A DNA stretch of 39,112 bases from Phycisphaerales bacterium (GCA_007693765.1 RECZ01000108.1:1-39112); one strand, 5' to 3'; positions 4,018 through 21,648 are shown, counted from the first letter of the stretch. Notes: generated by a model not told the origin, from the sequence alone. Program-made: numbers and translations.

Positions 4018-4219
4018 GACGGGAAAACACGTGCCTGCAGATCTTTCGATCGCTGGGGGCGCACCGCTTTGGACCGAACGCGAGCCCACGAGTTCGCGCA
4101 ATCTTCATCCTGCCCGACTGGTCCCGCCGCGTCCTTTGCGGGAGACTATCGCCCAAGCCATGTTCTGGCTCCCACGACGCACGTCGTCTCTCACAGACGA
4201 ACACACGAAGGATCGACCC

Positions 4220-5275
4220 ATGCCCACAGGCCTGAGGCGCAGCCGTCAGACCATCCGCACCACAGAGCACGGATTCACGCTCATCGAACTGCTCGTGGTT
4301 GTGTCCATCATTTCTCTGTTGATCGGCATCCTGCTCCCCTCGTTGAGTCAGGCGCTTCGCATCGCGCGGTCCACCATCTGCTCGACGACGCAGCGGCAGT
4401 TGATGCAGGGCATGATCACCTACGCCATGGAGAACGACGACGCCATCCCCGGCATCGGCACCAGCGGCTACGGGATCATGGAGCGTGCCCGCGGCGTCAC
4501 CGGCGACTGCGCCTCGGCGCTCCAGTTCGCCAACCGGCGCATCACGCCCGTGCAGAACTTCGACTGGATCACCCCCTCGGTGAACCCCGACGACCTGCCC
4601 ATCGAGCGCGCCGCACGCTTCGAGTTCATCCTCAATAACTTCGCCTGCCCCTCCAACACCACGCGCGTCATCGTGTGGCCGGGCGGCGACTGCGGGCGTC
4701 AGGACATGGAGGAGTACATCGAGACTCGCGCCGAAGACCTCCCCATCGGCCCCAGCTACCTCATGAACGCCAACTGGGGCATGGCCGGTCCCCGGCCCGG
4801 CGACCTCGGCTGGCCCGTCATCCGTCAGAGCGCGTACTCGTTCACCAGCCCCGTGCGCATGCCCGAGAGCTACCGGCCGCGCATCAACGCCGTGGGCAAC
4901 CCCTCGCGGAAGGCGGCGTTCGGCGACGGCTTCCGGTACCTCACCGCCGACGGCGTGGTGGACATCGACGCCAGCATCGCCCCGCAGTTCTGGGGCGCGT
5001 TCAGCGATTCCAGCCCGGTCTTCATGCAGTCGCGCTCGTACGGGACCGCGCAGACCAACGACAACACCCAGGGGCGCAACCTGCCCCTCTCGTACCGCCA
5101 CAACATGACCATGAACGCCGCGTTCTTCGACGGGCACGTGGCCAACCTCACGATGGATCAATCGCGCGACCCGTCGCTCTGGTTCCCCGCCGGCTCGCGC
5201 CTCACGCCGTCCAACAACAACCAGATTCATCCCTCCGTGCTCGAGAAGTATCAGCCCGGCGATTACTTCGAGTGA
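4220..5275 (+). CDS. Type II pseudopilin-like protein with H-X9-DG motif
   Basis: 351-aa protein with a classic type IV prepilin N-terminus: basic leader, then G18 followed by FTLIELLVVVSIISLLIGIL. Cleavage would fall after G18, leaving Phe1 and Glu5 (E23) of the mature pseudopilin. Near the C-terminus, H294 is followed nine residues later by DG (304-305). This H-X9-DG signature marks the large planctomycete families of secretion-associated pseudopilins. The ATG at 4220 was chosen because AAGGA lies eight bases upstream and it gives the right leader length. It probably sits in the inner membrane and periplasm as a pseudopilus or cargo-related subunit. The gene stands directly ahead of several secreted, dockerin-tagged genes. 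A prepilin peptidase and the rest of the secretion machinery are not in the window. Confidence 0.9.
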   Translation: MPTGLRRSRQTIRTTEHGFTLIELLVVVSIISLLIGILLPSLSQALRIARSTICSTTQRQLMQGMITYAMENDDAIPGIGTSGYGIMERARGVTGDCASALQFANRRITPVQNFDWITPSVNPDDLPIERAARFEFILNNFACPSNTTRVIVWPGGDCGRQDMEEYIETRAEDLPIGPSYLMNANWGMAGPRPGDLGWPVIRQSAYSFTSPVRMPESYRPRINAVGNPSRKAAFGDGFRYLTADGVVDIDASIAPQFWGAFSDSSPVFMQSRSYGTAQTNDNTQGRNLPLSYRHNMTMNAAFFDGHVANLTMDQSRDPSLWFPAGSRLTPSNNNQIHPSVLEKYQPGDYFE

Positions 5276-5461: not shown

Positions 5462-7291
5462 ATGCAGACTCGGACCACCATCACCGCCGCCGCGACGCTG
5501 CTCGCGCTGTGCGGCGCAGCGTTCGCCACGAACTACGACCCCACCGGTCAGGCCGGCCAATACGAGCACACCAAGACGACCACCGTCGTCCGCGGCTCCG
5601 GCGCCGCCACCACCGCCACCATCTGGGCGCCCTGGATCCTCCCCGAGGCCGACGCCGCGCAGAACTCCGCCGTCGTGCAGGTCGACGCCCAGGGCGTGCC
5701 CTACGGCGCCGTCTCGACGTTCGGCGGCCAGACCAACCCCTTCCGCGGCATCGCCGCCTTCGGCACCACCGACGCCGCCGGCTTCAACGGCGTCGCCAGC
5801 AACAACACCTTCATCACCGAGGGCATCACCAACCGCAGCAACTCCTTCGGCGAACTGGTGAACGACGGCACCGCCGTGTGGCGCGCCAACTTCGCCGGCC
5901 TCGAGCAGAACAACCTCGAGTTCCGCGCCCCGCTCCCCTGGCCCGCGAGCACCTCGCCGGTCGGCGCCGGCACGAAGGTCTTCGGCGCCTTCCCCGGCAT
6001 CGACGACACCTTCGGCGGCACGGCGCAGCTCGGCACCCCCGGCGCTGAGCGCTTCAACGGCACGCTGTACACCGGCGTGGCAGCCTTCGACAGCGGCACC
6101 CAGGCCATCCCCGTCGGTGTGAACGTCTACGCCGGCCAGAACAACAACCCCAACGCGCCCTTCGCCTCCTGGCTCCAGACCGGCGCCCCCGTCCCCACCA
6201 TCCCCGCCGGCCTGACCTCGGCGAACACCCGTCAGACGCAGCCCGTCGTGCGCACGCTCGCCCCCGACTGCAACCCCGACGGCGAGCTCTTCGTCATGTT
6301 CGGCGTCGGCTTCAGCGGCAGCTCGGTCACCGGCGGCTCCGCCCGCCCCGTCTACTTCGTGATCGATCAGGTCAACTCCAGCAACTGGTCCGACGGCTTC
6401 GTCTTCATCGACGCCGACGGCGACAACGACCTGAGCACCGCCAACCCCGACATCCGCTTCGTCGATCACCAGGCCACCGGCGGCGGCACCGGCCCCTTCA
6501 CCGGCGGGCAGTTCAGCATCAACCGTCGCGGCCAGGTCGTCGCGGTCGTCGAGGACCGCACCGTCACGCCCCGCGGCCACTCCATCCGCCTCTACAACCC
6601 CATCTGGGACGAGAACTGCAACCTCGTCGGCTACGAAGCCCCGATCGACATCGCCGTCGCCGGCCAGGACGGGATCGAGAACAACATCAACAACACCACC
6701 GGCACGACGACGTTCACCCTCCTGCCCCTTTCCGGCGCCGCCATCGACGACAACGGCAACGTCTCCTTCACCGCGATCACCGAGGTCGTGACCGACGTGA
6801 ACGCCATGGGCGCCCCCGTGCTGCTCGGATCCACCAACTCGCTCTTCTTCTGGCACGCCGCGAGCGACTCGCTGCACCGCGTGGTCGACGGTGGCCTCAA
6901 CGGCGACGTTCTGCCCGCGCTCAACTCCGGCCCCGATCTGAAGCTCGGCTTCTTCCCCGTCGACACCGCCTCTGACAACTTCACCCGCGCCGGCTTCTCC
7001 TCGGACGGCCTCGCGATGGCCTTCTGCTTCCGCAACCGCGGCGCCGCCAACCCCGCCTTCCCCGGCTTCACGCCCGATGGCGGCAACTTCGTCGGCGGCG
7101 CTTCTGTCCGCGGCGTCGTCGTCGTGCAGCTCGAAGAGCCCGACGTCTCCGTGCCCTGCCCCGGCGACTACAACAACGACGGCGTGGTCGACTTCGGCGA
7201 CCTGAGCACCGTGCTCGGCGCCTTCGGCTCCACCTTCGACTTCAACGACCTGAGCCTCGTTCTCAGCAACTTCGGCGCGATCTGCGAGTGA
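5462..7291 (+). CDS. Large secreted protein with C-terminal dockerin-like tag
   Basis: 609-aa exported protein of unknown function. A Sec signal peptide covers residues 1-22 (ending LLALCGAAFA). The body is rich in Asn, Gly, Thr and Pro and low in Lys, as is common for secreted beta-rich proteins. I recognise no catalytic motif; segments such as FVFIDADGDNDLS and QFSINRRGQVVAVVEDR hint at beta-strand repeats and Ca-binding loops. Residues 566-609 are a dockerin-like tag starting CPGDYNNDGVVDFGDLS and ending FGAICE. Its second half (FDFNDLSLVLSNFG) lacks a Ca loop. The ATG at 5462 has a strong Shine-Dalgarno sequence (AGGAGAAGAG), so in-frame codons upstream are rejected. A strong hairpin follows the stop. 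It may be a surface or matrix protein; that is inference. Confidence 0.85.
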   Translation: MQTRTTITAAATLLALCGAAFATNYDPTGQAGQYEHTKTTTVVRGSGAATTATIWAPWILPEADAAQNSAVVQVDAQGVPYGAVSTFGGQTNPFRGIAAFGTTDAAGFNGVASNNTFITEGITNRSNSFGELVNDGTAVWRANFAGLEQNNLEFRAPLPWPASTSPVGAGTKVFGAFPGIDDTFGGTAQLGTPGAERFNGTLYTGVAAFDSGTQAIPVGVNVYAGQNNNPNAPFASWLQTGAPVPTIPAGLTSANTRQTQPVVRTLAPDCNPDGELFVMFGVGFSGSSVTGGSARPVYFVIDQVNSSNWSDGFVFIDADGDNDLSTANPDIRFVDHQATGGGTGPFTGGQFSINRRGQVVAVVEDRTVTPRGHSIRLYNPIWDENCNLVGYEAPIDIAVAGQDGIENNINNTTGTTTFTLLPLSGAAIDDNGNVSFTAITEVVTDVNAMGAPVLLGSTNSLFFWHAASDSLHRVVDGGLNGDVLPALNSGPDLKLGFFPVDTASDNFTRAGFSSDGLAMAFCFRNRGAANPAFPGFTPDGGNFVGGASVRGVVVVQLEEPDVSVPCPGDYNNDGVVDFGDLSTVLGAFGSTFDFNDLSLVLSNFGAICE

Positions 7292-7323
7292 TCGCCGACC
7301 AGCGCTGAAACGCCATACACGCA

Positions 7324-7353
7324 CGGGACGGCGGGAGAAATCCCGCCGTCCCG
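7324..7353 (+). terminator. Strong hairpin after the secreted-protein gene
   Basis: A perfect 13-bp GC-rich stem, arms 7324-7336 and 7341-7353, is closed by a GAAA tetraloop (GNRA class, unusually stable). It starts 32 bp after the stop of the 609-aa gene and ends 59 bp before the next start. Only a mixed GCTTCC sequence follows, not a T-run, so it may act as an mRNA 3'-end stabiliser or a Rho-assisted terminator. Confidence 0.65.
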
Positions 7354-7412
7354 CTTCCGATTCCGGGACCGCCCGGAACATGATCGCAGCGAACAATCAG
7401 CAGGATTACAGC

Positions 7413-8576
7413 ATGCTCAACGCACCAATCGCGCTCCGCCGGTTTATTCTCTCCGCCTGCATCGCCGTTTCGGCGGCGCTCGCCTCGTCCGTTGCGCGCG
7501 GGGGAGGGTTCGAGGGCGTTCCGCTCCGCGTTGTCACCTTCAACGTGAAGGAGGGCGTTGGTGCGCCGGGCTCCTCATCTTTCAACGTCATCGGCGACTT
7601 CCTGACCACCGTGACGCAGAACCCCGGCAGCGGGAACACGGGCCTCAACCCCGACATCGTCGCCCTGCAGGAGTGCCGCAGCGACGCCAACCTGCTCGCC
7701 TTCCGCGATCAGTTCCTGCCGGGATACACCTACCACCGCACCAACCTGGCCGACTTCGGCGGCAACTTCAACGCCTTCTTCGTGCGCGGCGACCTGAACG
7801 TGGTCCACGTGCTGGAGCGTTTCATCGGCGGGCCGCGCAACCTGCTGCGCCTTGTGATCGAGGTCCCCGGCGCCGGGAACCTGCTCGCCGTCTACAACGT
7901 GCACTTTAAGGCGTTCGGCGACCAGCAGAGCCAGAACCAGCGCCGGCTCAACGCCATCGAGTCGGGCATCTTCGTCTACAACGATCTCACCCTCGGTCTC
8001 GACCTCACCGGCGACAACATCCGCGAGACCCCGCCCCCGTACGGCATCTTCATGGGCGACCTCAACTCCAACAACAACTTCGACGGCACCATCACCAACC
8101 TCTTCACCCACATCAACCTCGGCGTGCCCACGGGCATCCTCAACCTCCCCGTCGAGTCGATCGGCGGCGCGATGTCCGGCGGCCAGCCCTTCATCGCCAC
8201 CTTCCCCGGCTCCAACGCCCGCCTCGACTACATCTGCCTCGACAACGAGCTCGCCTCCGTCTTCGACGCCAACGGCGACGGTCAGTTCAGCCAGGACGAG
8301 CTCAACTCGATGGGCTTCGTCTACTACTCCGGCGACGATCAGGGCGCGCAGTCCAACGGCAACGCCAGCGCCACCTCATTCGCCTCCGACCACCGGCCCG
8401 TCGTGTTCGACGTCTACCTCCCCCTCGCCGCCCAGCCCTGCCCCGGCGACGTCAACGGCGACGGCATCGTCGACTTCGCCGACCTCAGCGCCGTCCTCGG
8501 TGAGTTCGGCGCGGCGTTCGACTTCGCCGACCTCAGCGCCGTGCTTGCCAACTTCGGCGCCGACTGCAACGCATGA
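7413..8576 (+). CDS. Secreted EEP-family nuclease/phosphatase with EF-hand and dockerin-like tag
   Basis: 387-aa exported member of the endonuclease/exonuclease/phosphatase (EEP) fold. After the signal peptide (residues 1-28 or so) come the fold's conserved blocks: VVTFNVKEG, DIVALQECRSD, YNVHFKAFGD, FMGDLNSNN and SDHRPVVFDV, so the catalytic Asn, Glu, His, Asp/Asn and terminal His are present. Substrate (DNA, RNA or phosphoester) is not readable. Residues 285-296 (DANGDGQFSQDE) form a textbook EF-hand loop between DYICLDN and SDHRP. Residues 343-387 are a dockerin-like tag of the one-loop type (CPGDVNGDGIVDF...FDFADLS...FGADCNA). The ATG at 7413 has AGGA seven bases upstream and is preferred to the in-frame ATG at 7380. 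Its stop overlaps a possible start of the next EEP gene. Confidence 0.85.
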   Translation: MLNAPIALRRFILSACIAVSAALASSVARGGGFEGVPLRVVTFNVKEGVGAPGSSSFNVIGDFLTTVTQNPGSGNTGLNPDIVALQECRSDANLLAFRDQFLPGYTYHRTNLADFGGNFNAFFVRGDLNVVHVLERFIGGPRNLLRLVIEVPGAGNLLAVYNVHFKAFGDQQSQNQRRLNAIESGIFVYNDLTLGLDLTGDNIRETPPPYGIFMGDLNSNNNFDGTITNLFTHINLGVPTGILNLPVESIGGAMSGGQPFIATFPGSNARLDYICLDNELASVFDANGDGQFSQDELNSMGFVYYSGDDQGAQSNGNASATSFASDHRPVVFDVYLPLAAQPCPGDVNGDGIVDFADLSAVLGEFGAAFDFADLSAVLANFGADCNA

Positions 8577-8617
8577 TCACCCGCCCGCTCCCGCGGTCGC
8601 CATCGGAACCGTCAACC

Positions 8618-9718
<1,101 letters not shown>

Positions 9719-9742
9719 TGCGGCCGCACCGGCCGGCGGCGG

Positions 9743-12010
9743 TCACTCCCGGCGCAGGGTACGCTCGAAGAAGCCCATGATGCGCTCGTAGAGCGTCCGC
9801 ACGTACACCGGGTCGGCGACCATGTGCGTCTGGGCGGCGAGCGGCAGGAACTCGTGCTCGATGCCCTCCCGCAGCAGGGCGTCGGACATCTTCAACGCGT
9901 GCACGAAGAACACGTTGTCGTCCGCCGTGCCGTGGGCGATGAAGAGGGGCCGCCGGAGCTCGTGCGCATACGTCAGGACATTGCTGCGCTCGTACGCCTC
10001 GGGCTCTTCCTGGGGCAGTCCGATGAAGCGCTCGGTGTAGTGCGTGTCGTAGTCGATCCAGTCCGTCACGGGGGCGCCCGCGACGCCGGCGTGGAACAGC
10101 TCCGGCATGCGCATCACCGCCATGGCGCTGAAGTACCCGCCGAACGACCACCCGTACACGCCGACGCGCGAGAGGTCCATCTCGGGGTGGCGTGCGGCGA
10201 GCGCACGCAGGCCGTCGGCCTGATCCTGCAGCGGCACGCCGATGAAGTCGCCGCGGATCACACGCTCCCACTCGCGCCCCCGCGCGGGCGTGCCGCGCCC
10301 GTCGATGGCCACGACGATGTACCCCTGGTCCGCGATCCACTGGTTCAGCAGCGTGTTCCGCCCGCTGCGCGACGCGGTGACCACCTGCACCCCGGGGCCG
10401 CCGTACACACTCAAGATCACCGGGTACGTGCGCCCGCGTCGGAAGTCCCGCGGCCGGAACACCGCGGCCCGGGGCGCCGCCTCGTCGCCCGTGGTGGTCG
10501 TCAGTTCGACGTTCACGCTGAAGCCGGCGCGCTCGGCGACGCTGACGAGCGTTCCAGCCTCCGAGCCGTCCGCCCGCACAACGCGCCACGTTTCGCCCCC
10601 GTCGAAGTGATCGTGCGCCTCGACCCGCAGCGAATGATCCCGCGCGAACTCGGCGCTGTGCAGGCCGCGCTCGGAAGTGATCCGCTCCGCCCGTGGCGGC
10701 GCCGCGTCGAGCGACACGCGGTAGACGTGCGTCTCCGTCGGCTCGGCGGAGGCCCGCACGTACGCGGCACGCCCGGCCTCGTCGAGCGAGAGCAGGCCGC
10801 GCCGGTAGCCGACGCCGAGCGGCGTGAGCGGGCGGAGCAGGTCGCCGTCGCGCCCGCGGAGTTCGAGGCGCCACTCGCCCTCACGCTCGCTCGTCCACAG
10901 GAAGCCGGAGCCGTCGGCCAGCCAGCGGGGCATGTCCTGATCGAGGTTGAGCCACGCGCTGTCGCGCTCGACGAGCAGGGTGCTGACGGAGCCCGACTCT
11001 GGGTTCGCCGCGAGCAGGCGCTGCTCGGTCTGGTGGCGGTTCTGCACCAGGAGGGTGAGCGGGGCGTTCTCCGTCCAGCGCACGGTGGCGAGGTAGGGGT
11101 ACGCGGCGTCGTCCCATTCGATCCAGCGTGTGGGGCCGCCCTCGACGCCGATCACGCCGAGGCGGACAATGGCGTTGTCCGTGCCCGCGCGGGGGTACGG
11201 CCACGATTGCACGGGGCGGGCGGGGTCGAAGGCGTCGGCGATGTGGAACGTCTCGAGCCCCTCGACATCGACCTGCGTATACGCCAGCGAACGCCCGTCG
11301 GGGGCCCACCAGTAGCCCTCCATGCGCTTCATCTCCTCCTGCGCCACAAACTCGGCGAGGCCGTTGGTGATCGTCTCGCTCTCGCGCGTGGTGAGGCGGC
11401 GCTCACGCCCGGTCTCGACGTCGATGACGTACAGATCGCCGTCGCGCACGCACGCGACCATGCTCCCATCCGGCGAGAACCGCGCATCGATCGCGAAGCC
11501 CTCCCCGGCGCCGATCTCGCGGCTGGCGCCCGTCGCCAGATCCACCACGAAGAGCCGGCCCGAGAGCGGCACGAGCAGGCGGGCGCCGTCCCTCGACATC
11601 TGGAAGGAGGCGACGCCCCGCGCCGTCTGGCGCATCCGCTCGCGCCGGGCCAGTTCTTCGAGCGTCAGTTCCTCCTCCTCGCCCGCGAGCAGCCCTTCTG
11701 CGGTGAGCAGCACGCGCTCACGGCCCGTCGCGGGGTCGAACTCGTAGAGGTTCTGCTCGAACGAGCGCGGTCCGGACCGCAGAAAGAGCACCCGCTCGCC
11801 ACCGGGCGTGATGCGGATCGAGGCGGGCTTGCCCAGCCGGAAGCGGTTCGTCGCGGCGAACTGCTCGAGGAAGCCCGGATCGGCCGCGGCGTGGCGCGAC
11901 GTCGGCGGCGCACCCGACGAGGTTCGGTGGGCGTCCGTCGCGCAGGCGCCCAGCGCGAGCAGCGAGAGGAGCGAAGCGGCTATGGTAAACGGCGTTCTTG
12001 CGGTCGTCAT
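9743..12010 (-). CDS. S9 prolyl oligopeptidase family protein, DPP-IV-like lipoprotein
   Basis: 755-aa serine peptidase of family S9B (dipeptidyl peptidase IV type), predicted to release N-terminal dipeptides. The N-terminus is lipoprotein-like (SLLSLLALGAC, C23). Residues to about 500 form the DPPIV beta-propeller, including FVAQEEMKRMEGYWWAPDG, whose Glu pair binds the substrate amino group in this family. The alpha/beta-hydrolase domain has the nucleophile in GWSFGGYF (S622), the acid in HGTADDN (D697/D698) and H729 in QTHMV. The spacing matches known DPP-IV enzymes, so it looks active. It is divergent from the M28 peptidase gene, 56 bp away, and converges on the second EEP gene. No clear Shine-Dalgarno sequence precedes the ATG. 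Confidence 0.93.
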   Translation of the reverse strand: MTTARTPFTIAASLLSLLALGACATDAHRTSSGAPPTSRHAAADPGFLEQFAATNRFRLGKPASIRITPGGERVLFLRSGPRSFEQNLYEFDPATGRERVLLTAEGLLAGEEEELTLEELARRERMRQTARGVASFQMSRDGARLLVPLSGRLFVVDLATGASREIGAGEGFAIDARFSPDGSMVACVRDGDLYVIDVETGRERRLTTRESETITNGLAEFVAQEEMKRMEGYWWAPDGRSLAYTQVDVEGLETFHIADAFDPARPVQSWPYPRAGTDNAIVRLGVIGVEGGPTRWIEWDDAAYPYLATVRWTENAPLTLLVQNRHQTEQRLLAANPESGSVSTLLVERDSAWLNLDQDMPRWLADGSGFLWTSEREGEWRLELRGRDGDLLRPLTPLGVGYRRGLLSLDEAGRAAYVRASAEPTETHVYRVSLDAAPPRAERITSERGLHSAEFARDHSLRVEAHDHFDGGETWRVVRADGSEAGTLVSVAERAGFSVNVELTTTTGDEAAPRAAVFRPRDFRRGRTYPVILSVYGGPGVQVVTASRSGRNTLLNQWIADQGYIVVAIDGRGTPARGREWERVIRGDFIGVPLQDQADGLRALAARHPEMDLSRVGVYGWSFGGYFSAMAVMRMPELFHAGVAGAPVTDWIDYDTHYTERFIGLPQEEPEAYERSNVLTYAHELRRPLFIAHGTADDNVFFVHALKMSDALLREGIEHEFLPLAAQTHMVADPVYVRTLYERIMGFFERTLRRE

Positions 12011-12066
12011 GCGGGCATGGTACCGCTGACGATCCCCAACGATCCAGACACGAACCCGGAGACGCC

Positions 12067-14181
12067 ATGCGCCGCGCCGCGATCATCCCCACGTTCCTGC
12101 TCGCCACGATCCTGCCGCCGTCAGATCACGCCGCCCGCGCCGACGCCGACGCGCTGGCCCAGCGCCAGCGCGCCTGGGAAGCGGCGCTCAACGCCGCGGT
12201 CGACCCCGCCAGCATCGCCCGCACGCACGAGACGCTGGCCGCCGAGCCCCACGTCGCCGGCACGGAGGCTTCGTTCCGCGTGGCCGACTGGCTGACGGAC
12301 ACCTTCTCCGAACTCGGCTACAACGTCATCACGCCCGAGTACTGGGTCTACCTGCCGCGGTTCGTCGACGCCTCGCTCGAGATCGTGTCGCCCGTCGCCA
12401 TTGAGCTCTCAATCCGCGAGGACGTGCTCGAAGAAGACCCCGACACCGGCCACCCCGACATCACCCCCGGCTGGAACGCCTACAGCGGCAGCGGCGAGGT
12501 CGAGGCGGGCGTCGTCTACGCCAACTACGGCACGATCGAGGACTTCGCAACGCTCCGCGAGATGGGCGTCAGCGTCGAGGGCAAGATCGTCATCGCCCGC
12601 TACGGCCGGAACTACCGCGGCTACAAGGCCAAGTTCGCCGAGGAGGCCGGCGCCGCGGGGCTCATCATGTACACCGACCCCGCCGACGCGGTGCGCGGCG
12701 AGACGTACCCGCACGGCGGCTGGGCGCACCCGTCACAGATCCAGCGCGGCTCGATCAAAACGCTGCCCTACGCCGGCGACCCGCTCACCCCCGGCGTGCC
12801 GGCGCACTTCAACGCCGAAAGGCTGGACCCCGACGACGTCGACCTCCCCCGCATCCCCGTGCAGCCCATCGGCTACGGCGCGGCTGAGCAGATCATCTCC
12901 CGCATGCGCGGCGACCCGGCGCCCGACGGTTGGCACGGCAATCTCCCGCACGAGTACCGGGTGACGGGCGGCGACGACCTGCGCATCCGGATGCGGGTCG
13001 AGCAGGTGCGCGAGATCACGCGCATCCGCAACGTGCTGGCCCGCATGCCCGGCGTGGTGGACCCGATGCAGATGGTCGTCGTGGGCAGCCATCACGACTC
13101 GTGGGCGCACGGCGCGAGCGATCCGCTCGCGGGCACGATGGTCATGGTCGAGGCGGCGCGGGCGTTCGCGCACGCCGCGCAGCAGGGCATGCGCCCGGCG
13201 CGCACCATCGTCTTCGCCGCGTGGGACGCGGAGGAATTCGGCATCATCGGCTCGACCGAGTGGGTGGAGGAGCAGATCGAACGCCTCACGCGCGACGCGG
13301 TGGCGTACATCAACCTTGATATGTCGGTCATGGGCGACCAGTTCCGGGCCGCCGCATCGTCGCCAACGCTCCACGGCGTGATCGAGGAGGCCGCCCGCGC
13401 GGTGACCGAGCCGGGCCCCGACAACACCACGAGCGTCCTCGACGCGTGGATGGCGCGCATCCCGCCCGCCACGCCTGGGCGCCCGCGCATCGGCCTGCTC
13501 GGCGGCGGGTCGGATCACATCGGCTTCGCCAGCCACGCGGTCGTGCCTTCGATCAGCCTCTCGATGTCCGGCGCCGAGGGCGTGTCGTACCACTCCGCGT
13601 ACGACACCATCGCCTGGTGGCGCAAAGTGGTGGGCGATGACTACGAGTCCGCGCGCACGCTCACGCAGATCACCAACGTCATCCTGGCGCGCCTCGCGGG
13701 CGTCGCCAGCGCCGACGGGTACGTCGGGCTGCCCATGCTGAGTTTCGAACGCATCGCTCCCGCCGCCCTCGCGCACCTCGATGCGCTCGCCGCACGCGCC
13801 AAGACGCTGGGCGTGGCGTTCGACCGGGCGCCGCTGGACGCCGCGGCCGCGCGCGTCGACGAGCGTGCCGCCGCGGTCGAAGCAACGCTGCGCGCACGGG
13901 GCGACACGCAGGGCCTCGACGCCGGCGTCGCGCGCACCATGATGCTCGTCGATCGCGCGTGGCGCGACGACGAGGGCCTGCCCGAGCGCCCGTGGTTCCG
14001 CAACACGTTCGTGGCGTCCGACGAGACCAGCGGCTACGCGGCGTGGGCCTTCCCGCTGCTGCGACGGGAGATCGAGCACCGCGACGACGATGCGCTGCGC
14101 GCCGCCGTCGAGCGCACCCGCGCCGCGTTCGAGCGCGTCGAGCGCGCTCTGGCCACGCTGGAGACCGAACTTAGCGAGTGA
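12067..14181 (+). CDS. M28 family zinc peptidase, glutamate carboxypeptidase II-like
   Basis: 704-aa exported peptidase of the PSMA/NAALADase type. The order is: signal peptide (residues 1-25 or so), PA-type insert (GKIVIARYGRNYRGYKAKFAEEAGA), M28 catalytic core, and C-terminal transferrin-receptor-like helical domain. The zinc ligands and catalytic Glu are visible: GSHHDSWAHGASDP (H, D), WDAEEFGIIGSTEW (E-E), NLDMSVMG (D) and YHSAYDTI (H). It should cleave C-terminal acidic or other residues from peptides outside the cytoplasm. The ATG at 12067 has GGAGA a few bases upstream and starts the signal peptide; the in-frame ATG at 11998 would overlap the divergent gene and is rejected. Paired with the DPP-IV-like gene, it suggests peptide scavenging. 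Confidence 0.93.
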   Translation: MRRAAIIPTFLLATILPPSDHAARADADALAQRQRAWEAALNAAVDPASIARTHETLAAEPHVAGTEASFRVADWLTDTFSELGYNVITPEYWVYLPRFVDASLEIVSPVAIELSIREDVLEEDPDTGHPDITPGWNAYSGSGEVEAGVVYANYGTIEDFATLREMGVSVEGKIVIARYGRNYRGYKAKFAEEAGAAGLIMYTDPADAVRGETYPHGGWAHPSQIQRGSIKTLPYAGDPLTPGVPAHFNAERLDPDDVDLPRIPVQPIGYGAAEQIISRMRGDPAPDGWHGNLPHEYRVTGGDDLRIRMRVEQVREITRIRNVLARMPGVVDPMQMVVVGSHHDSWAHGASDPLAGTMVMVEAARAFAHAAQQGMRPARTIVFAAWDAEEFGIIGSTEWVEEQIERLTRDAVAYINLDMSVMGDQFRAAASSPTLHGVIEEAARAVTEPGPDNTTSVLDAWMARIPPATPGRPRIGLLGGGSDHIGFASHAVVPSISLSMSGAEGVSYHSAYDTIAWWRKVVGDDYESARTLTQITNVILARLAGVASADGYVGLPMLSFERIAPAALAHLDALAARAKTLGVAFDRAPLDAAAARVDERAAAVEATLRARGDTQGLDAGVARTMMLVDRAWRDDEGLPERPWFRNTFVASDETSGYAAWAFPLLRREIEHRDDDALRAAVERTRAAFERVERALATLETELSE

Positions 14182-14209
14182 TCACGCCGCGGCGTGGAAG
14201 GGGGGTCGC

Positions 14210-16057
14210 TCAGCGGTCGATCAACTCAAGGGCCAGTTCCAGCGCCTCGTCCCGCCCCGCGAGCACGCCCGCGCGCGTCACGATGGCGTCGACATCGGGG
14301 GCGATGCCCGTTCCGCTGATCGTCTCTCCGTCGCCGTCGCGGACGAGGACGCCCGTCCAGCGCAGCCAGTGCCCGCTGGGCAGCCACTCCTCGGCGAGCC
14401 ACCGGCCCGGCGACCCGCCCGTGCGCTCACCGATGATCACGCCGAGGTCGTATCCACGCACCGGGACCAGGTCGGCCTCGGCTTGCCCGAGGGTTCGGAC
14501 ATCGGTGAGGAACACCACGCGGGCGTCGATCTCCGGGGGCCTGCTGATGAGGATGCCCTCGTGCTGCTCGAACGCGAGATCGACGCGATCCGGGCGCCGC
14601 GGCGTGGGGATCCACGTCCGCGCCGGCCACGCGGCCTCGGTGTCGTGCAGCAGCATACCGAGTTGCTCGCCCAGCGCTCCGTCGTCGGCGGCGCGGTAGT
14701 CGATGATCAGCCCGCGCTTGCCCGTCGCGCGGTGGATGGCGTCGATGATGGCCGATTCGTCGAGGACAGCGGTGTTGATGTAGAGCACGCCCGGTGCGAC
14801 CTCCTCCACCGGGCCGCGGCGCGACGGGGCGAGCGTGGACGGCGGCTCGGTGCGGGTGAGACGAACGGGCCGCTCCTCCCCGGACTCGCTGCGCACCACA
14901 AGGGCGATCTCCGAGCCGCGGGCGCCGAGGGCGATGTCATCGAGCGCCAGAGCGCGACGCAGACGATCGGTCGCGCCGGGCGCGAACGCCGCGGCGATTT
15001 CGATGGCCTCGGCCGCGGGCACGCCGTCGATCTCGACGACGACGTCGCCGCGCGCGACGCGGGTGTCCGCGCCCTCGGGCGTGTTTGAGATGATCAGTTC
15101 CCCGTCGATCCACGCCCACGAGAGCGGGGGGGCGAACATCGCCGGCGCCATGTGCAGTTCGATGTGCGCCTGGGCGTCGCCCACGTGCGCGAGCAGACGC
15201 TGCACCGGGCGGAGCATGGCCGCCGGGTCTTCGTGATCGGTGGTGGCCGCGAGCGCAATGGATTCGTTGAGCGCGGCGTTCCATCCATCGTTCTCGAGCG
15301 TGGACCACGGGTGGAAGTGCCGCAGCGCGCCCCACGCGACAACGACGCTCCCGATGCGCACGGCGCGCCGGACCTCGTCTCGCGGGGCGGTGAGCAGCGG
15401 GCGGGGAACCACGGCGTCGGCCTCGTGCGTGGCGGCCGGGAGCGACTGGCCCTTGGTGCTCGCCCACAGCGTGATGGGGAGGCTGAGCGAGACGCCGCCG
15501 CCCAGGTCGGCGACCCAGGGCGTCATCGGGTCGGGAAAGCCGCGGAGCGCTCGGCCCGCCTCCAGCGCAGTGAAGAGACGGGCCCGGTGGAAGATGCCCA
15601 CGCCGCCGAACTCCCCGAAGCCGACATGGTCCGCGGTGAGCACGCCGACGATCTGGTTGTCGGGCTCGGTGCGGATCAGTTCGATCTCCGGCGCATCCTC
15701 CTCGCTCAGAAAGAAGTGTCCGCCGGGCGCGACGGTGCCGAAGAGCTTGGAGAGCGTCTTACGCCGCTCCTCCGGTGTGGCCGCGTCTTCGACCGCCAGC
15801 ACCCCGTTGACGGCGAACTCGGCCCAATCGAGGCGAATGGCGACATCAGAAGGGTGGAAAAACCGCACCAGCGACATCGCCTTGGCGAGCGCGGCGACGC
15901 TGACTGCCCCCTCAGCCGAGAGCGGTCGACGGGGGTCCGGGGCGTCGGTGGCGAGGGCGGGGGCGCTGAGAATCCACGCGCCCGCGAGGGCGAGGCGTGC
16001 GAGGACGCCGGAGCGACGCGCGGCGGACACGTGTGTCTGAGGCTGCTTGATCTTCAT
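14210..16057 (-). CDS. S41-like exported protein, probably inactive
   Basis: 615-aa exported protein (signal peptide ending SAPALA) with an S41 C-terminal-processing-peptidase-like architecture. An N-terminal helical/beta region contains LAKAMSLVRFFHPSD; a PDZ-like segment contains RGDVVVEIDGVPAAEAIE; the S41-like core contains GVLYINTAVL, GLIIDYRA and GVIIGERTGGSPG. In active S41 enzymes the nucleophile lies in TaSaaE. Here the aligned stretch is RTLGQAEADL with Gly524 in the Ser position, and FGKG-type Lys is also absent. It is therefore likely a pseudo-protease, perhaps a binding or scaffold protein. The ATG at 16055-16057 gives the best signal peptide; the frame is open further upstream. 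It converges on the M28 gene with a 28-bp gap. Confidence 0.8.
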   Translation of the reverse strand: MKIKQPQTHVSAARRSGVLARLALAGAWILSAPALATDAPDPRRPLSAEGAVSVAALAKAMSLVRFFHPSDVAIRLDWAEFAVNGVLAVEDAATPEERRKTLSKLFGTVAPGGHFFLSEEDAPEIELIRTEPDNQIVGVLTADHVGFGEFGGVGIFHRARLFTALEAGRALRGFPDPMTPWVADLGGGVSLSLPITLWASTKGQSLPAATHEADAVVPRPLLTAPRDEVRRAVRIGSVVVAWGALRHFHPWSTLENDGWNAALNESIALAATTDHEDPAAMLRPVQRLLAHVGDAQAHIELHMAPAMFAPPLSWAWIDGELIISNTPEGADTRVARGDVVVEIDGVPAAEAIEIAAAFAPGATDRLRRALALDDIALGARGSEIALVVRSESGEERPVRLTRTEPPSTLAPSRRGPVEEVAPGVLYINTAVLDESAIIDAIHRATGKRGLIIDYRAADDGALGEQLGMLLHDTEAAWPARTWIPTPRRPDRVDLAFEQHEGILISRPPEIDARVVFLTDVRTLGQAEADLVPVRGYDLGVIIGERTGGSPGRWLAEEWLPSGHWLRWTGVLVRDGDGETISGTGIAPDVDAIVTRAGVLAGRDEALELALELIDR

Positions 16058-16266
16058 AGTGGGCCGGCGATGTACGGATTGCATTCGGTGTGCGTTTCGA
16101 TGGTGTGCAGGCAAATGATACGTGGCCCGTCGACGCGGCTCCGATCGCTTTGGGCGTAGACCGATCCGGACGGGGAGCCGCCGCGGTTTCGGCGTGTCTG
16201 TGGGTGGGAAAGTTCCGAGATCCGGCTTCGAATCGCGCCCGCGGTGTTGGCGCCGGAGATCTCGAC

Positions 16267-16656
16267 ATGAACTCCTCGTCAATCGTCGTTAACACTTTCG
16301 CCAAGTATGAGACCCGCGAGATCCACTGCAGCGCCGTGTTCGACGCTTGGCTGACGTCGACCGCGGAGGCACCTGGCGCGTGGAGCATTCGCGTCGGCGA
16401 TCTCGACATCCTCACCACAGAGGAGAACGCCGATGTCACCCTCCCGGGTTTAGGGCTCGTGTGGTACGAGAACCCGCTCATCAGAATTGTTCCGGGCGAT
16501 GCAAACGGCGACGGCGTGGTCGACTTTGCGGACCTGAGCATCGTTCTGGCTTCATTCGGCATGAGCGGCGCCGACCTCCAAGGCGACCTGAACGGCGACG
16601 GCGTGGTCGATTTCCAGGATCTGGCGTTAGTGCTCGCCAACTTTGGAATGTTCTAG
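16267..16656 (+). CDS. Small dockerin-domain protein, probable gene remnant
   Basis: 129-aa frame whose last 55 residues are a two-loop dockerin-like tag (VPGDANGDGVVDFADLS then GDLNGDGVVDFQDLA). The preceding 70 residues (SIVVNTFAKYETREIHCSAVFDAW...) resemble the end of a beta-sandwich domain but match nothing I know. GGAGA sits seven bases before the ATG at 16267. The frame stays open upstream to a GTG at 16090, with low-complexity non-export-like residues. There is no signal peptide, and both tag cysteines found in the three intact relatives are missing (VPGD for CPGD, terminal FGMF for FG..C). I take it as the 3' remnant of a decayed secreted gene, although expression as a small cytoplasmic protein is possible. 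Confidence 0.5.
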   Translation: MNSSSIVVNTFAKYETREIHCSAVFDAWLTSTAEAPGAWSIRVGDLDILTTEENADVTLPGLGLVWYENPLIRIVPGDANGDGVVDFADLSIVLASFGMSGADLQGDLNGDGVVDFQDLALVLANFGMF

Positions 16657-16886
16657 CCGCCCGCCGATGGACGGACGTCCCCGTAATGGCGGGCGCGTAC
16701 CTTCGTCCTGCCGCTGTGGCAACGTCCGGGGAAAACTTTGGAAATTACGCTGGCAAGCCGCCTTCCATGAAGTATTGTTTCACCTACCGCGAGTGTGCCG
16801 GAAGCCCATACGCTGCGCCGATCGCACGCCCGTAAGAGTCCGGGCCGCCGCAGCACCGTTCGGATACCTAACTTGAGGAGACGGGA

Positions 16887-18473
16887 ATGTCCCGAATGTG
16901 TATCACGAAAGCCACGACCGCCATGTTCGCCCTTGCCGGCGCCGCGCTCGCTTCGCCCTGCACAACCCACAAGCACGCCGACGCGTGCGTCGCCGGACCC
17001 TCCGAGCGCAGCGCCCTCGCAACGAGCGCACCGATCGCGTTCGCCCCGGGATCCGCGATCCCAGAGGTCCGCACCAAGCGTCAATTCCTCGACGACGTGG
17101 AGCGGGGCTACGAACTGACGTTCCCGCTCTTCGCGGCGTGCTTCGACGAGAACTCACCCCCGCGCGACGACATCCTCATGGCCATCGAAGAGACGATCTA
17201 CGGCCTCAACCAGCGCTACCAGATCGGCGCCCGTTGGCCGGGCTCGCAGGGAACGCAGATTACGTTGACGTGGAGCCTCATCCCCGACGGCGTCTTTATC
17301 CCGGCCGCTTTCGCCGGTGAACCCGCCGGCCCCAGCGAGCTCTTCAGCCGCATGGACTCCATCTTCACCGCCCAGGGCGGGCGCGCGACGTGGATCGCCC
17401 GCATGGAGTCCGTGTACGAGCGGTGGTCGCAGCTCAGCGGCATCACCTTCAACCGCATCACCGTCGGCGGGAACGACTGGGACGACGGCGCCTCGTGGGG
17501 CTCTTCAGGCTCTTCCACCCGCGGCCAGATGCGCGTCGCGATGCGCAACATCGACGGCGGCGGCGGCACGCTCGCGTACAACTTCTTCCCCGGCAGCGGC
17601 AACGGCGGCAACATGGTTATGGACCGCTCCGAGAACTGGGGCAACTCCTCGAACACGCACCGCTTCCTGCGCAACGTGGTGTCGCACGAGGTGGGCCACG
17701 GTATCGGGTTCAACCACAATTGCCCCCAGAACGGCACCAAGCTGATGGAGCCGGGCCTGAACACCAACTTCGACGGGCCTCGCCACGACGAGATCCGCGC
17801 CGTGCACCGCAACTACGGCGACGCGTTCACGCCCAACAACACGACCGCGCTCGCCCACGACATCGGCTCGCTCAGCATCGGTCAGGTCGCCATGCCTTGC
17901 ACCGTCCCCACCCCCTTTGTCGGCAACGGCTCGCTGTGCAGCATCGACCGCACCGCCGACGTCGACTTCTTCCGCTTCGAGATCAACGAATCCGCCTCGT
18001 TGAGCGTCACGCTCAGCCCCGTCGGCTTCACCTACAACGAGGCGCCGCAGAACGCCAACGGTTCGTGCCCTTCGGGCACCGCGTTCAACTCGCTGACCGT
18101 CGCCAACATCGGCATGCAGATCTTGACCTCCGGCGGCAGCGTGATCGGCAGCGCTTCCTCCAACCCCGCCGGGCAGTCCGAGCAGATCGACATCAACCTC
18201 TTCCCGGGCACGTACTTCGTCCGTGTCTTCCAGACCGGCTCGATCACCCAGTCGCAGCTCTACTCGCTGGCGCTGAGCATCGAAGAGGATGAGATCGTCT
18301 GCCCCGGCGACATCACCGGTGACAACATCGTTGACTTCAACGATCTCAGTCTTGTGCTCGGCCAGTTCGGACAGTCGGGCCCGGGCCTGCAGGGCGACGT
18401 CAACGGCGACGGCCAGGTCGACTTCACCGACCTGAGCATCGTGCTCTCGAACTTCGGGTTGGACTGCAACTAA
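16887..18473 (+). CDS. Secreted metzincin-type metalloprotease with dockerin-like tag
   Basis: 528-aa exported zinc protease. A signal peptide (ending GAALAS) precedes a pro-region and a matrixin-like catalytic domain with HEVGHGIGFNH at 267-277 (HExxHxxGxxH; H267, E268, H271, H277) and a Met-turn-like KLMEPG. The central ASWGSSGSSTRGQMRVAMRN segment is typical of matrixin-like bacterial proteases. About residues 320-465 look like a PPC beta-sandwich (ADVDFFRFEINESASLSVTL). Residues 472-528 are a two-loop dockerin-like tag (CPGDITGDNIVDF, GDVNGDGQVDF, ending FGLDCN). The ATG at 16887 has GAGGAG six bases upstream. A rho-independent terminator follows. The gene is monocistronic between the remnant and trpS; it probably digests extracellular protein. 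Confidence 0.9.
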   Translation: MSRMCITKATTAMFALAGAALASPCTTHKHADACVAGPSERSALATSAPIAFAPGSAIPEVRTKRQFLDDVERGYELTFPLFAACFDENSPPRDDILMAIEETIYGLNQRYQIGARWPGSQGTQITLTWSLIPDGVFIPAAFAGEPAGPSELFSRMDSIFTAQGGRATWIARMESVYERWSQLSGITFNRITVGGNDWDDGASWGSSGSSTRGQMRVAMRNIDGGGGTLAYNFFPGSGNGGNMVMDRSENWGNSSNTHRFLRNVVSHEVGHGIGFNHNCPQNGTKLMEPGLNTNFDGPRHDEIRAVHRNYGDAFTPNNTTALAHDIGSLSIGQVAMPCTVPTPFVGNGSLCSIDRTADVDFFRFEINESASLSVTLSPVGFTYNEAPQNANGSCPSGTAFNSLTVANIGMQILTSGGSVIGSASSNPAGQSEQIDINLFPGTYFVRVFQTGSITQSQLYSLALSIEEDEIVCPGDITGDNIVDFNDLSLVLGQFGQSGPGLQGDVNGDGQVDFTDLSIVLSNFGLDCN

Positions 18474-19748: not shown

Positions 19749-20786
19749 TCACCGCATCGCGATCCAGAGATTAAGGGCGTTGAAGGCCGCGTGCATCACG
19801 ATGGGGGCTCCGATCCGCCCCGTACGCTCAAAGACCACCCCGAACCCGATCGAGACCGCGAAGAGCGTGGCCAGCGTGTACACCGGCACCGAGCCCGCGT
19901 GCATCAGCGAGAAGATCACGCTGGTGAGGGCGATCCCCAGCAGCGGCGAGCGCATCAGCCGCACCAGCCCCGTCTGCAGGAACCCGCGGTAGACGATCTC
20001 CTCGATGAGGGGCGCCAGCAGCACAACGTCGAGGATCACAAGCCAATGCCACGTGGTGGTGTCCGTGGCCGTCAACGCCTGCAGCGTGGTGTGGCCCATG
20101 ATGTCCGGGGCCTCCGCGCCCCGTGCGGCCGCGATCCGCGAGGCGAGGGAGTACGCCGCGGTCCCGATCAGGTAGACGATGGGGAAGGCCAGCACCAACC
20201 CGACGACGCCAACGACCACGTCCGTCAGACGCGCGGTGAAGGGGTTGTCGCGCCCCTTGTGGAACGCGAGCCGGATGTACAGTAGACCGACGACCAGCGC
20301 GACGGCGTGCGCGCCGAGCCCGATCAACGCCACCCGTCGCAGCGTGTCGGAGGCGTCCGTCATGCCCCCTGTGTAGAGCACCAGAGCGCCGCCGCTCAGC
20401 GCCCAGACCGCCCACAGGCCCAGCGCGCCCATCACCCACACCGCCGCCGCCGCGGAGGTGCGCCGATCGAGGCTCCCCCGCAGGTTCTTTCTGTTCAAAA
20501 GCCGCCCCCCGCTGAGCAACGCCAGCGAGACGACGGCGCACGCCATCATGAAAAGCGTCAGAGACTGCCGCGGATCACGCTCGGCGGCGGCGCCCTGTTC
20601 TGGGTCGGCCCCGGCCGGGGGCGCCTCATCGCCGCTCGACGCGGGGGGTGCTGCGGCGGGGGGAGGGCCGGACGCATCGCCTTGCGTCTGCGGTTGTGCA
20701 AGGCCTATCGTGGCCCCGTCGCTCGCGATTGCCGATGCAGTGGACGCGACGAGCATCACCCCCGCGATCAACCCCACGATCACCAC
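19749..20786 (-). CDS. CPBP family intramembrane metalloprotease
   Basis: 345-aa membrane protein with the CPBP (CAAX protease/bacteriocin-processing, Abi) signature: EEIVYRGFL (EExxxR), FSLMHAG (FxxxH) and HAAFNALN (HxxxN). An N-terminal signal-like segment (GLIAGVMLVASTASA) leads into a Pro/Ala-rich linker (about residues 35-65) and about eight membrane spans. The target substrate is unknown; members process prenylated proteins or peptides. No ATG exists before the signal: the start is taken as the middle of three consecutive GTGs (20783-20789) with AGAGG upstream, and ATG 20756 is the alternative. The start is only about 30 bp from the divergent trpC start, so each promoter must lie inside the other gene. 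Confidence 0.87.
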   Translation of the reverse strand: MVIVGLIAGVMLVASTASAIASDGATIGLAQPQTQGDASGPPPAAAPPASSGDEAPPAGADPEQGAAAERDPRQSLTLFMMACAVVSLALLSGGRLLNRKNLRGSLDRRTSAAAAVWVMGALGLWAVWALSGGALVLYTGGMTDASDTLRRVALIGLGAHAVALVVGLLYIRLAFHKGRDNPFTARLTDVVVGVVGLVLAFPIVYLIGTAAYSLASRIAAARGAEAPDIMGHTTLQALTATDTTTWHWLVILDVVLLAPLIEEIVYRGFLQTGLVRLMRSPLLGIALTSVIFSLMHAGSVPVYTLATLFAVSIGFGVVFERTGRIGAPIVMHAAFNALNLWIAMR

Positions 20787-20814
20787 CACCGACCTCTGGC
20801 GCCCACGAGAAGCC

Positions 20815-21648
20815 GTGACGACGCTCGACGAGATCATCCAGCACAAGCGCGAAGAAGTTCGCGAGCGCAAGGCGCGGACCGGTCTCGACGAGCTCAAGGA
20901 GCTCATCAGCGAGCTCGGGCGCCCGCGGAATTTCTTCGGGGCTCTGGTCAGCCCGGAACGGCCCCCGCCGACGTCGATCATCGCCGAGATCAAGCGGCGC
21001 AGCCCCTCGGCCGGGCTCATCCGACCGGAATACGATGGCGATGGCTTCGACCCCGTCTCCATCGCTCGACAGTACCACGCCAACGGGGCCGCGGCGATCT
21101 CCTGCCTGACCGACGAGCGGTTCTTCGGGGGCCGCCTCGAGTACATCCACCGCGTCCGCGACGCCGTGCCGCTGCCCGTGCTCCGGAAAGACTTCATCAT
21201 CGATCCCTGGCAGGTTTGGGAGAGCCGCGCCGCCGGGGCGGACGCGATTCTCCTCATCGCCGAGTGTCTCAAGGAGGGGGAGATCATCGACCTGATGATC
21301 CTCGCCCGGCAGCTCCAGCTCACGACGCTCATCGAGGTGCACTCGATGGACAATCTGCTCCGTGTGCGCCCCCACGTCGGCTTCCCCTCGCGGTCCTACT
21401 GCCTGCTGGGCATCAACAACCGCGACCTCTCGACGATGCAGACCGACCTCGGCCACACCCTCCGCCTCGCCGACCTCGTCGAGGACCGCGCCGTGCTGGT
21501 GAGCGAGTCCGGCATCCGCACCGCCGAGGACCTCGCCCGACTACGGAGCCACGGCGTGCGCATCGCCCTCGTTGGCGAATCGCTGATGCGCGAGCCCAGC
21601 CCCGGAGCCGCCCTCGCGGCCCTGCTCGGTCGCGCTCCCAAAGACTGA
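20815..21648 (+). CDS. trpC: Indole-3-glycerol phosphate synthase
   Basis: Cytoplasmic TIM-barrel enzyme of tryptophan synthesis, closing the indole ring from carboxyanthranilate deoxyribulose phosphate. At 277 aa it is close to the usual 255-270. Family blocks are intact: SIIAEIKRRSPSAGLIRPEYD (catalytic Lys in EIKRRSPS), AAISCLTDERFFGG, LPVLRKDFIIDPWQVWESRAAGADAILLI, LIEVHSMDNL, LLGINNRDLSTMQTD, LVSESGIRTAEDL and ALVGESLMRE. The GTG at 20815 (VTTLDEIIQHKREEV) was chosen because it sits at the family N-terminus and has GAGA just upstream; the frame is open earlier only through the divergent CPBP gene. No other trp biosynthesis gene is in the window, so the pathway is dispersed here. Confidence 0.96.
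   Translation: MTTLDEIIQHKREEVRERKARTGLDELKELISELGRPRNFFGALVSPERPPPTSIIAEIKRRSPSAGLIRPEYDGDGFDPVSIARQYHANGAAAISCLTDERFFGGRLEYIHRVRDAVPLPVLRKDFIIDPWQVWESRAAGADAILLIAECLKEGEIIDLMILARQLQLTTLIEVHSMDNLLRVRPHVGFPSRSYCLLGINNRDLSTMQTDLGHTLRLADLVEDRAVLVSESGIRTAEDLARLRSHGVRIALVGESLMREPSPGAALAALLGRAPKD

Follow-up and report, generated by a model that had tools for sequence, protein, structure and literature searches.

Two forms of a GC-type dockerin-like tag, one with a single calcium loop, on secreted proteins of a Phycisphaerales bacterium

The 39,112-nucleotide stretch of a Phycisphaerales bacterium genome analyzed here (GCA_007693765.1, RECZ01000108.1:1-39112), hereafter called the window, encodes between positions 5,462 and 18,473 three secreted proteins and the remnant of another that end in a C-terminal tag resembling a GC-type dockerin. 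This GC-type dockerin recurs across the genome in two forms, of which the form with a single Ca2+ loop was previously unrecognized. It is fairly probable that the tags are divergent GC-type dockerins, closed by a disulfide clasp and present in full and half-loop forms, that share one lineage-specific partner other than a recognizable cohesin. In one family of water-dwelling planctomycetes, genomes carry annotated GC-type dockerins on anything from dozens of secreted proteins to more than 80. The tags provide three handles on the partner: current profiles overlook the short form, the Cys pair predicts a disulfide, and the lineage signature is one that any true receptor has to match.

Two forms of the tag

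Translation placed the four tags of the window where a sequence-only reading had put them, with the short form on a 609-amino-acid (aa) protein and on the first of two endonuclease/exonuclease/phosphatase (EEP) proteins and the long form on an M10 metalloprotease and on the remnant (Table 1). The tag at 7157 to 7288 consists, in order, of C-P-G-D, one Ca2+ loop, a helix, a three-residue junction with a final Phe, a second helix, Cys, and Glu. In the long form, two F-hand motifs of loop and helix each include a full Ca2+ loop, whereas the short form lacks loop 2.

The genome as a whole (2.9 Mb, from a Phycisphaerales-type planctomycete) contains 64 such tags as read from open reading frames (ORFs), all at the very C terminus. 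Their core lengths are 43 to 49 residues in the short form and 56 to 66 in the long form, except for two single-repeat tags, of 28 and 32 residues. On contig C68, what looks like a short tag is a long one truncated by the contig end. A profile built from the window's two short tags retrieved 15 full-length short tags from the same genome at 54.6 to 105.8 bits, below which there were only half-profile matches (≤48.4 bits), nearly all of them to repeats of long tags. In tags from 27 contig sets, the helix-to-helix spacing is either 15 to 16 or 24 to 39 residues, with the range from 17 to 23 empty and one outlier at 60, and the short class lacks both the linker and the second Ca2+ loop. The linker of the long tags is variable; the QSGPGLQGD type, which had been proposed as the common pattern, does occur, along with MSGADLQGD and others.

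The hosts had been described as secreted, and of 57 complete ORFs with a tag, 47 have a signal-peptide-like start by a crude rule, compared with 21 of 123 untagged ones in the same regions. In this genome they include peptidases (S8, M10, and M14), esterases, a multicopper oxidase, propellers, and proteins of unknown function. The sequence-only reading had itself named three findings that would speak against it, namely, tags that do not fall into two forms genome-wide, a lack of paired cysteines, and cytoplasmic hosts; the tags fall into two forms, their cysteines are paired, and the hosts mostly bear signal peptides.

Short tags are present in nine genomes of two families (G000, G007, G011, G027, G141, and a Rimov-type metagenome-assembled genome, CANJRL, in one; G050, G328, and G346 in the other). 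The three-residue turn, with its invariant final Tyr or Phe, takes the place of the linker and second Ca2+ loop, so that the short form may keep a dockerin-like helix placement with one Ca2+ ion instead of two. A bulky second residue in loop 1 is shared by 26 of the 29 short tags analyzed, compared with 77 of 217 long tags. The loss of one Ca2+ loop might also be taken to mean that the short form is a decayed, functionless long tag; this is hardly credible, as the junction Tyr/Phe and the helix motifs are retained in 29 of 29 short tags and the terminal Cys in nearly all of them, across nine genomes and two families.

Some tags have further architectures. A third, rarer one, consisting of a single C-terminal loop-helix repeat, was observed in this genome (contig C176) and in G011 and G027; single-repeat tags with Cys on both sides, such as CPGDVTGDGQIGFDDLAAVLSVFGTSCD, are found on a 409-aa ORF (L085, on C176), a 431-aa ORF (L200), and a 253-aa ORF (L201). 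In G034 and G013 (L165 to L175), long insertions at like positions in both repeats give tags of ~79 and 65 aa, uniform within each genome.

Relationship to known dockerins

The proposed identity as a GC-type dockerin is borne out by the NCBIfam model NF041540 (dockerin_GC), which has the same C-terminal two-loop domain, covers the whole tag with its 67 positions, and matches 36 places in the genome, 5 of them above the curated cutoff of 29 bits. Most tags of this genome nevertheless score below that cutoff. Within the window, the long tag of the metalloprotease reaches 22.9 bits and that of the remnant 26.3 bits, while the short tags give 13 bits or no match; against PF00404 (Dockerin_1; cutoff, 22.9 bits), the two long tags score 22.8 and 23.3 bits, respectively. 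Among proteins of this genome, 24 of 46 with long tags match PF00404 and 29 of 46 match NF041540 at an E value of 0.001, whereas none of the 15 with short tags matches PF00404 at 0.001 or NF041540 at 0.01. By these profile scores, the long form belongs to the dockerin_GC family through its passing siblings, and the short form lies outside it. Three of the four tags in the window show the C-terminal position and the Cys near the end that define dockerin_GC; the "GC" of the family name probably derives from the ..NAGC ends of tags in other genera. NF041540 was found in 46 of 61 related genomes and, within the order, is concentrated in two families. The suggestion that the system is specific to planctomycetes was too strong, since dockerin-like tags, there lacking the Cys pair, also occur in Poribacteria, Chthonomonadaceae, Clostridiales, and archaea.

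Both forms are predicted to adopt the dockerin fold. In its AlphaFold model (pLDDT, 89.7), the short tag folds into two helices, with V20 of loop 1 and F37 of the junction as bridge residues, and is closest to the dockerin 2y3n_B (TM score, 0.72; Z score, 6.4; root mean square deviation [RMSD], 1.7 over 48 residues). That of the long tag (pLDDT, 91.2) aligns with the same structure at a Z score of 10.0 and an RMSD of 1.9 over 59 residues. The matches of both models in the PDB are almost all dockerins, the type II dockerin 2y3n_B being the best.

The tags share their fold, Ca2+ loop pattern, and internal two-fold repeat with PF00404 and the type I and II dockerins of cellulosomes, but they differ in the paired terminal Cys, in the one-loop short form, and in that no cohesin or scaffoldin was found. 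Cellulosomal hosts are mainly plant-polysaccharide hydrolases, whereas glycoside hydrolase families are absent among the hosts listed here (for long-tagged hosts, 25 of 48 shown). A short class alongside a full class is also known from Ruminococcus flavefaciens, in which short (half) group 2 and full group 4 dockerins bind one cohesin, ScaE (PMC5301203). Those half dockerins resemble the C terminus of the full module (PMC5301203), whereas the short form here retains the N-terminal loop-helix followed by a loop-less second helix.

Terminal cysteine pair

A Cys near each end of the tag had been noted in the three intact proteins of the window, and both are present there; the remnant has neither. 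The 246 tags compared, which come from 26 contig sets, comprise 196 with both Cys, 29 with neither, 9 with the N-side Cys only, and 12 with the C-side Cys only, so that the C-side Cys is present in 208 tags and 225 have both or neither (Fisher's exact test, P = 1.8e-20, a value that overstates independence because tags within one genome are related). When the C-side state was shuffled within genomes, 193.5 ± 3.6 tags were concordant, and none of 5,000 shuffles equaled the observed number. The pattern also holds separately in this genome (44 with both and 11 with neither versus 5 mixed) and in G050 (27 and 4 versus 0 mixed). The N-side Cys mostly lies at position -3 from the first Ca2+ ligand (176 tags), with a second group at -5 (17 tags), and the C-side Cys is mostly the third residue after helix 2 (173 tags) and, in most tags, lies 0 to 3 residues from the protein end. 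The N-side Cys may change register, as where GGCELVGD or CRLAGD replaces CPGD, without loss of the pair.

The simplest reading of this covariation is that an end-to-end disulfide likely closes the domain. It would link the Cys before the first Ca2+ loop to the Cys after the last helix and would be a covalent counterpart of the intramolecular clasp by which cellulosomal dockerins tie the same two ends through aromatic-proline stacking (PMC5934362, PMC4728124). Such head-to-tail clasps make dockerins more stable (PMC4728124, PMC5934362).

The terminal Cys had alternatively been thought of as a sorting signal. Its place 0 to 3 residues from the end and the gene for a CPBP-type membrane protease at 19749 to 21353 would suit a site of covalent attachment or processing of a lipid, sortase-like, or myxosortase-like kind, but this would leave the joint presence and absence of the two Cys unexplained, and the tag lacks a hydrophobic segment. 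Given the covariation of the Cys and the lack of a membrane helix in the tag, we favor the disulfide and regard an attachment site as very unlikely.

Three long tags, on contigs C18, C23 (16034 to 17035), and C93 (6541 to 8067), have a second Cys pair, after helix 1 and inside Ca2+ loop 2, which suggests an additional disulfide. The Cys parity of host bodies was also considered as a sign of an oxidizing compartment and was dropped, as even counts are not in excess.

Lineage signature and the partner of the tags

The helices are worded differently in each genus: DFADLSxVLxNFG in this genome, FADITxVLANFG in G007, VxDILxVI in G050, FNDFLxFLN in G003, and NTNDFFxFL in G025. Mean helix identity is 0.65 within genomes and 0.36 between them, and for 28 of 29 short tags the nearest long tag by helix residues lies in the same genome. 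The two forms are thus not separate systems, since the short tags carry the helix signature of the long tags of their own genome. The tag does not follow its host. A 449-aa short-tagged protein has homologs in 12 other genera, and these bear at the C terminus the tag of their respective lineages, mostly in the long form; tags of homologous hosts from different genera are 0.358 identical, compared with 0.355 for random between-genome pairs, while the tags of these homologs are 0.59 to 0.86 identical to those of unrelated hosts at home (five genomes compared). The sequences indicate that the tags within each genome undergo concerted evolution, which is the outcome expected if one partner per lineage reads all tags.

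This likeness within genomes but not among genera points to one lineage-specific partner for both forms. The long form is built of two loop-helix halves, and the helix pair, which is common to both forms, would be the surface seen by the partner. Most likely a single partner, located at the cell surface or on a secreted scaffold, accepts the two forms. The hosts hint at what docking may be for. The 449-aa protein belongs to the NCBIfam "choice-of-anchor" family NxxGxxAF and resembles a MYXO-CTERM-anchored family, and long-tagged hosts include members of choice-of-anchor B and D, which suggests that the tag may stand in for an anchor.

The same family membership, together with the strictly C-terminal position on many unrelated hosts, would also suit a tag recognized during export across the outer membrane, like a C-terminal sorting domain, rather than a later docking module, since other members of the choice-of-anchor families bear different C-terminal sorting signals. 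The tag is, however, predicted to be a folded Ca2+-binding dockerin with a conserved Cys pair, and it ends in a soluble domain rather than in the motif, membrane helix, and basic tail of PEP-CTERM/exosortase substrates. Exosortase (PF09721) was considered as a mutually exclusive alternative system and was dropped for lack of contrast, as it is present in all 61 genomes, tagged or untagged; the tags are therefore no replacement for exosortase sorting. We consider the export role unlikely.

The partner would not be a cohesin that Pfam recognizes. As had been noted for the window, no cohesin is apparent: PF00963 has no match in this genome even at an E value of ≤1 and is absent at ≤0.01 from 56 of the 61 genomes (present in 5). 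Within the family of this bacterium, 34 of 37 genomes lack it at ≤0.01, yet all 37 have dockerin_GC matches, many at 80 places or more. The PF00963 profile could miss cohesins beyond its reach, and the partner might be one of these, as part of a cellulosome-like complex that serves proteolysis and similar tasks. A "planctosome" of cohesin and dockerin modules has been proposed for the related freshwater Phycisphaerae Nemodlikiaceae (PMC6461901); as there, dockerins are borne here by secreted peptidases (S8, M10, and M14) of a freshwater lineage, and the nearest fold is a type II dockerin. That model needs cohesin-bearing proteins (PMC6461901), of which PF00963 finds none here, so it is not transferable as it stands, and the lack of PF00963 in so many genomes with GC-type dockerins makes a divergent cohesin improbable.

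Some points weigh against a disulfide-clasped docking module with one shared partner. A partner is missing from our search, which covered the cohesin family PF00963, so that docking is something we infer. VKOR (PF07884) and DsbB (PF02600) were not found in this genome and had to be dropped as backing for disulfides. The alignment behind the short-tag model included long tags, which draws the model toward the dockerin fold and makes it not fully independent. Finally, codon identity at identical residues is 0.68 to 0.71 between tags of one genome versus 0.56 expected; by this measure, their likeness comes in part from common descent or copying.

This excess of synonymous identity would be expected if copying or gene conversion alone produced the lineage signatures and the tag were a partnerless cap that shields the C terminus, which the Cys clasp and Ca2+ loops would each stabilize. 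Identity at third positions falls well short of complete (median nucleotide identity, 0.75), yet the helices are alike in both forms and on more than 60 hosts, and a cap has no need of a lineage-specific helix surface; a simple cap is distinctly unlikely. A docking module with a shared partner remains the preferred explanation. A bolder extension of it, which we put forward only tentatively and would sooner doubt than accept, is a cohesin-independent surface assembly in Phycisphaerales, in which one receptor family would dock more than 60 secreted proteins per cell by way of their disulfide-clasped dockerins, the receptor would codiverge with the tags as a lineage "code," and a single receptor would read full, single-Ca2+-loop, and possibly single-repeat tags.

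Features of the window

The tagged genes and an untagged neighbor are listed in Table 1. No signal peptide was found in the remnant ORF (16267 to 16656).

Table 1. Tagged proteins, their tags, and an untagged neighbor in the window
Feature	Position	Strand	Basis or match
609-aa secreted protein, short-tagged	5462..7291	+	ORF and translation; Sec-like signal peptide; no Pfam domain
Short (single Ca2+ loop) GC-type dockerin-like tag of the 609-aa protein, 44 aa, CPGDYNNDGVVDFGDLSTVLGAFGSTFDFNDLSLVLSNFGAICE	7157..7288	+	Own-genome profile search; AlphaFold model
398-aa EEP protein (first), short-tagged	7380..8576	+	PF03372, E = 1.6e-8
Short tag of the first EEP protein (second short tag), 45 aa	8439..8573	+	Profile search; NF041540, just 13 bits (cutoff, 29)
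Second EEP protein, adjoining, untagged (contrast)	8573..9718	+	PF03372, E = 6.9e-18; no dockerin match
Remnant of a tagged protein, a short ORF of 129 aa counted from its ATG	16267..16656	+	In-frame starts and translation
Long (two Ca2+ loop) tag of the remnant, 54 aa, no Cys at either end	16492..16653	+	NF041540, 26.3 bits; PF00404, 23.3 bits
M10 (matrixin) metalloprotease, 528 aa, long-tagged, with a PPC domain	16887..18473	+	PF00413, E = 5e-13; PF04151, E = 3.3e-8
Long tag of the M10 metalloprotease, 57 aa, both terminal Cys, two full Ca2+ loops	18300..18470	+	Profile search; AlphaFold model

Two other genes of the window were noted. The ORF at 19749 to 21353, on the minus strand, has the CPBP-type intramembrane protease motifs EEIVYRGFL and HAAFN, and its superfamily includes myxosortases; no connection between this ORF and the tags was found. 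Positions 4031 to 5275, on the plus strand, encode a protein resembling a prepilin; its N-terminal methylation motif, FTLIELLVVVSIISLLIGILLP, and its FFDGHV end are typical of the expanded pseudopilins of planctomycetes.

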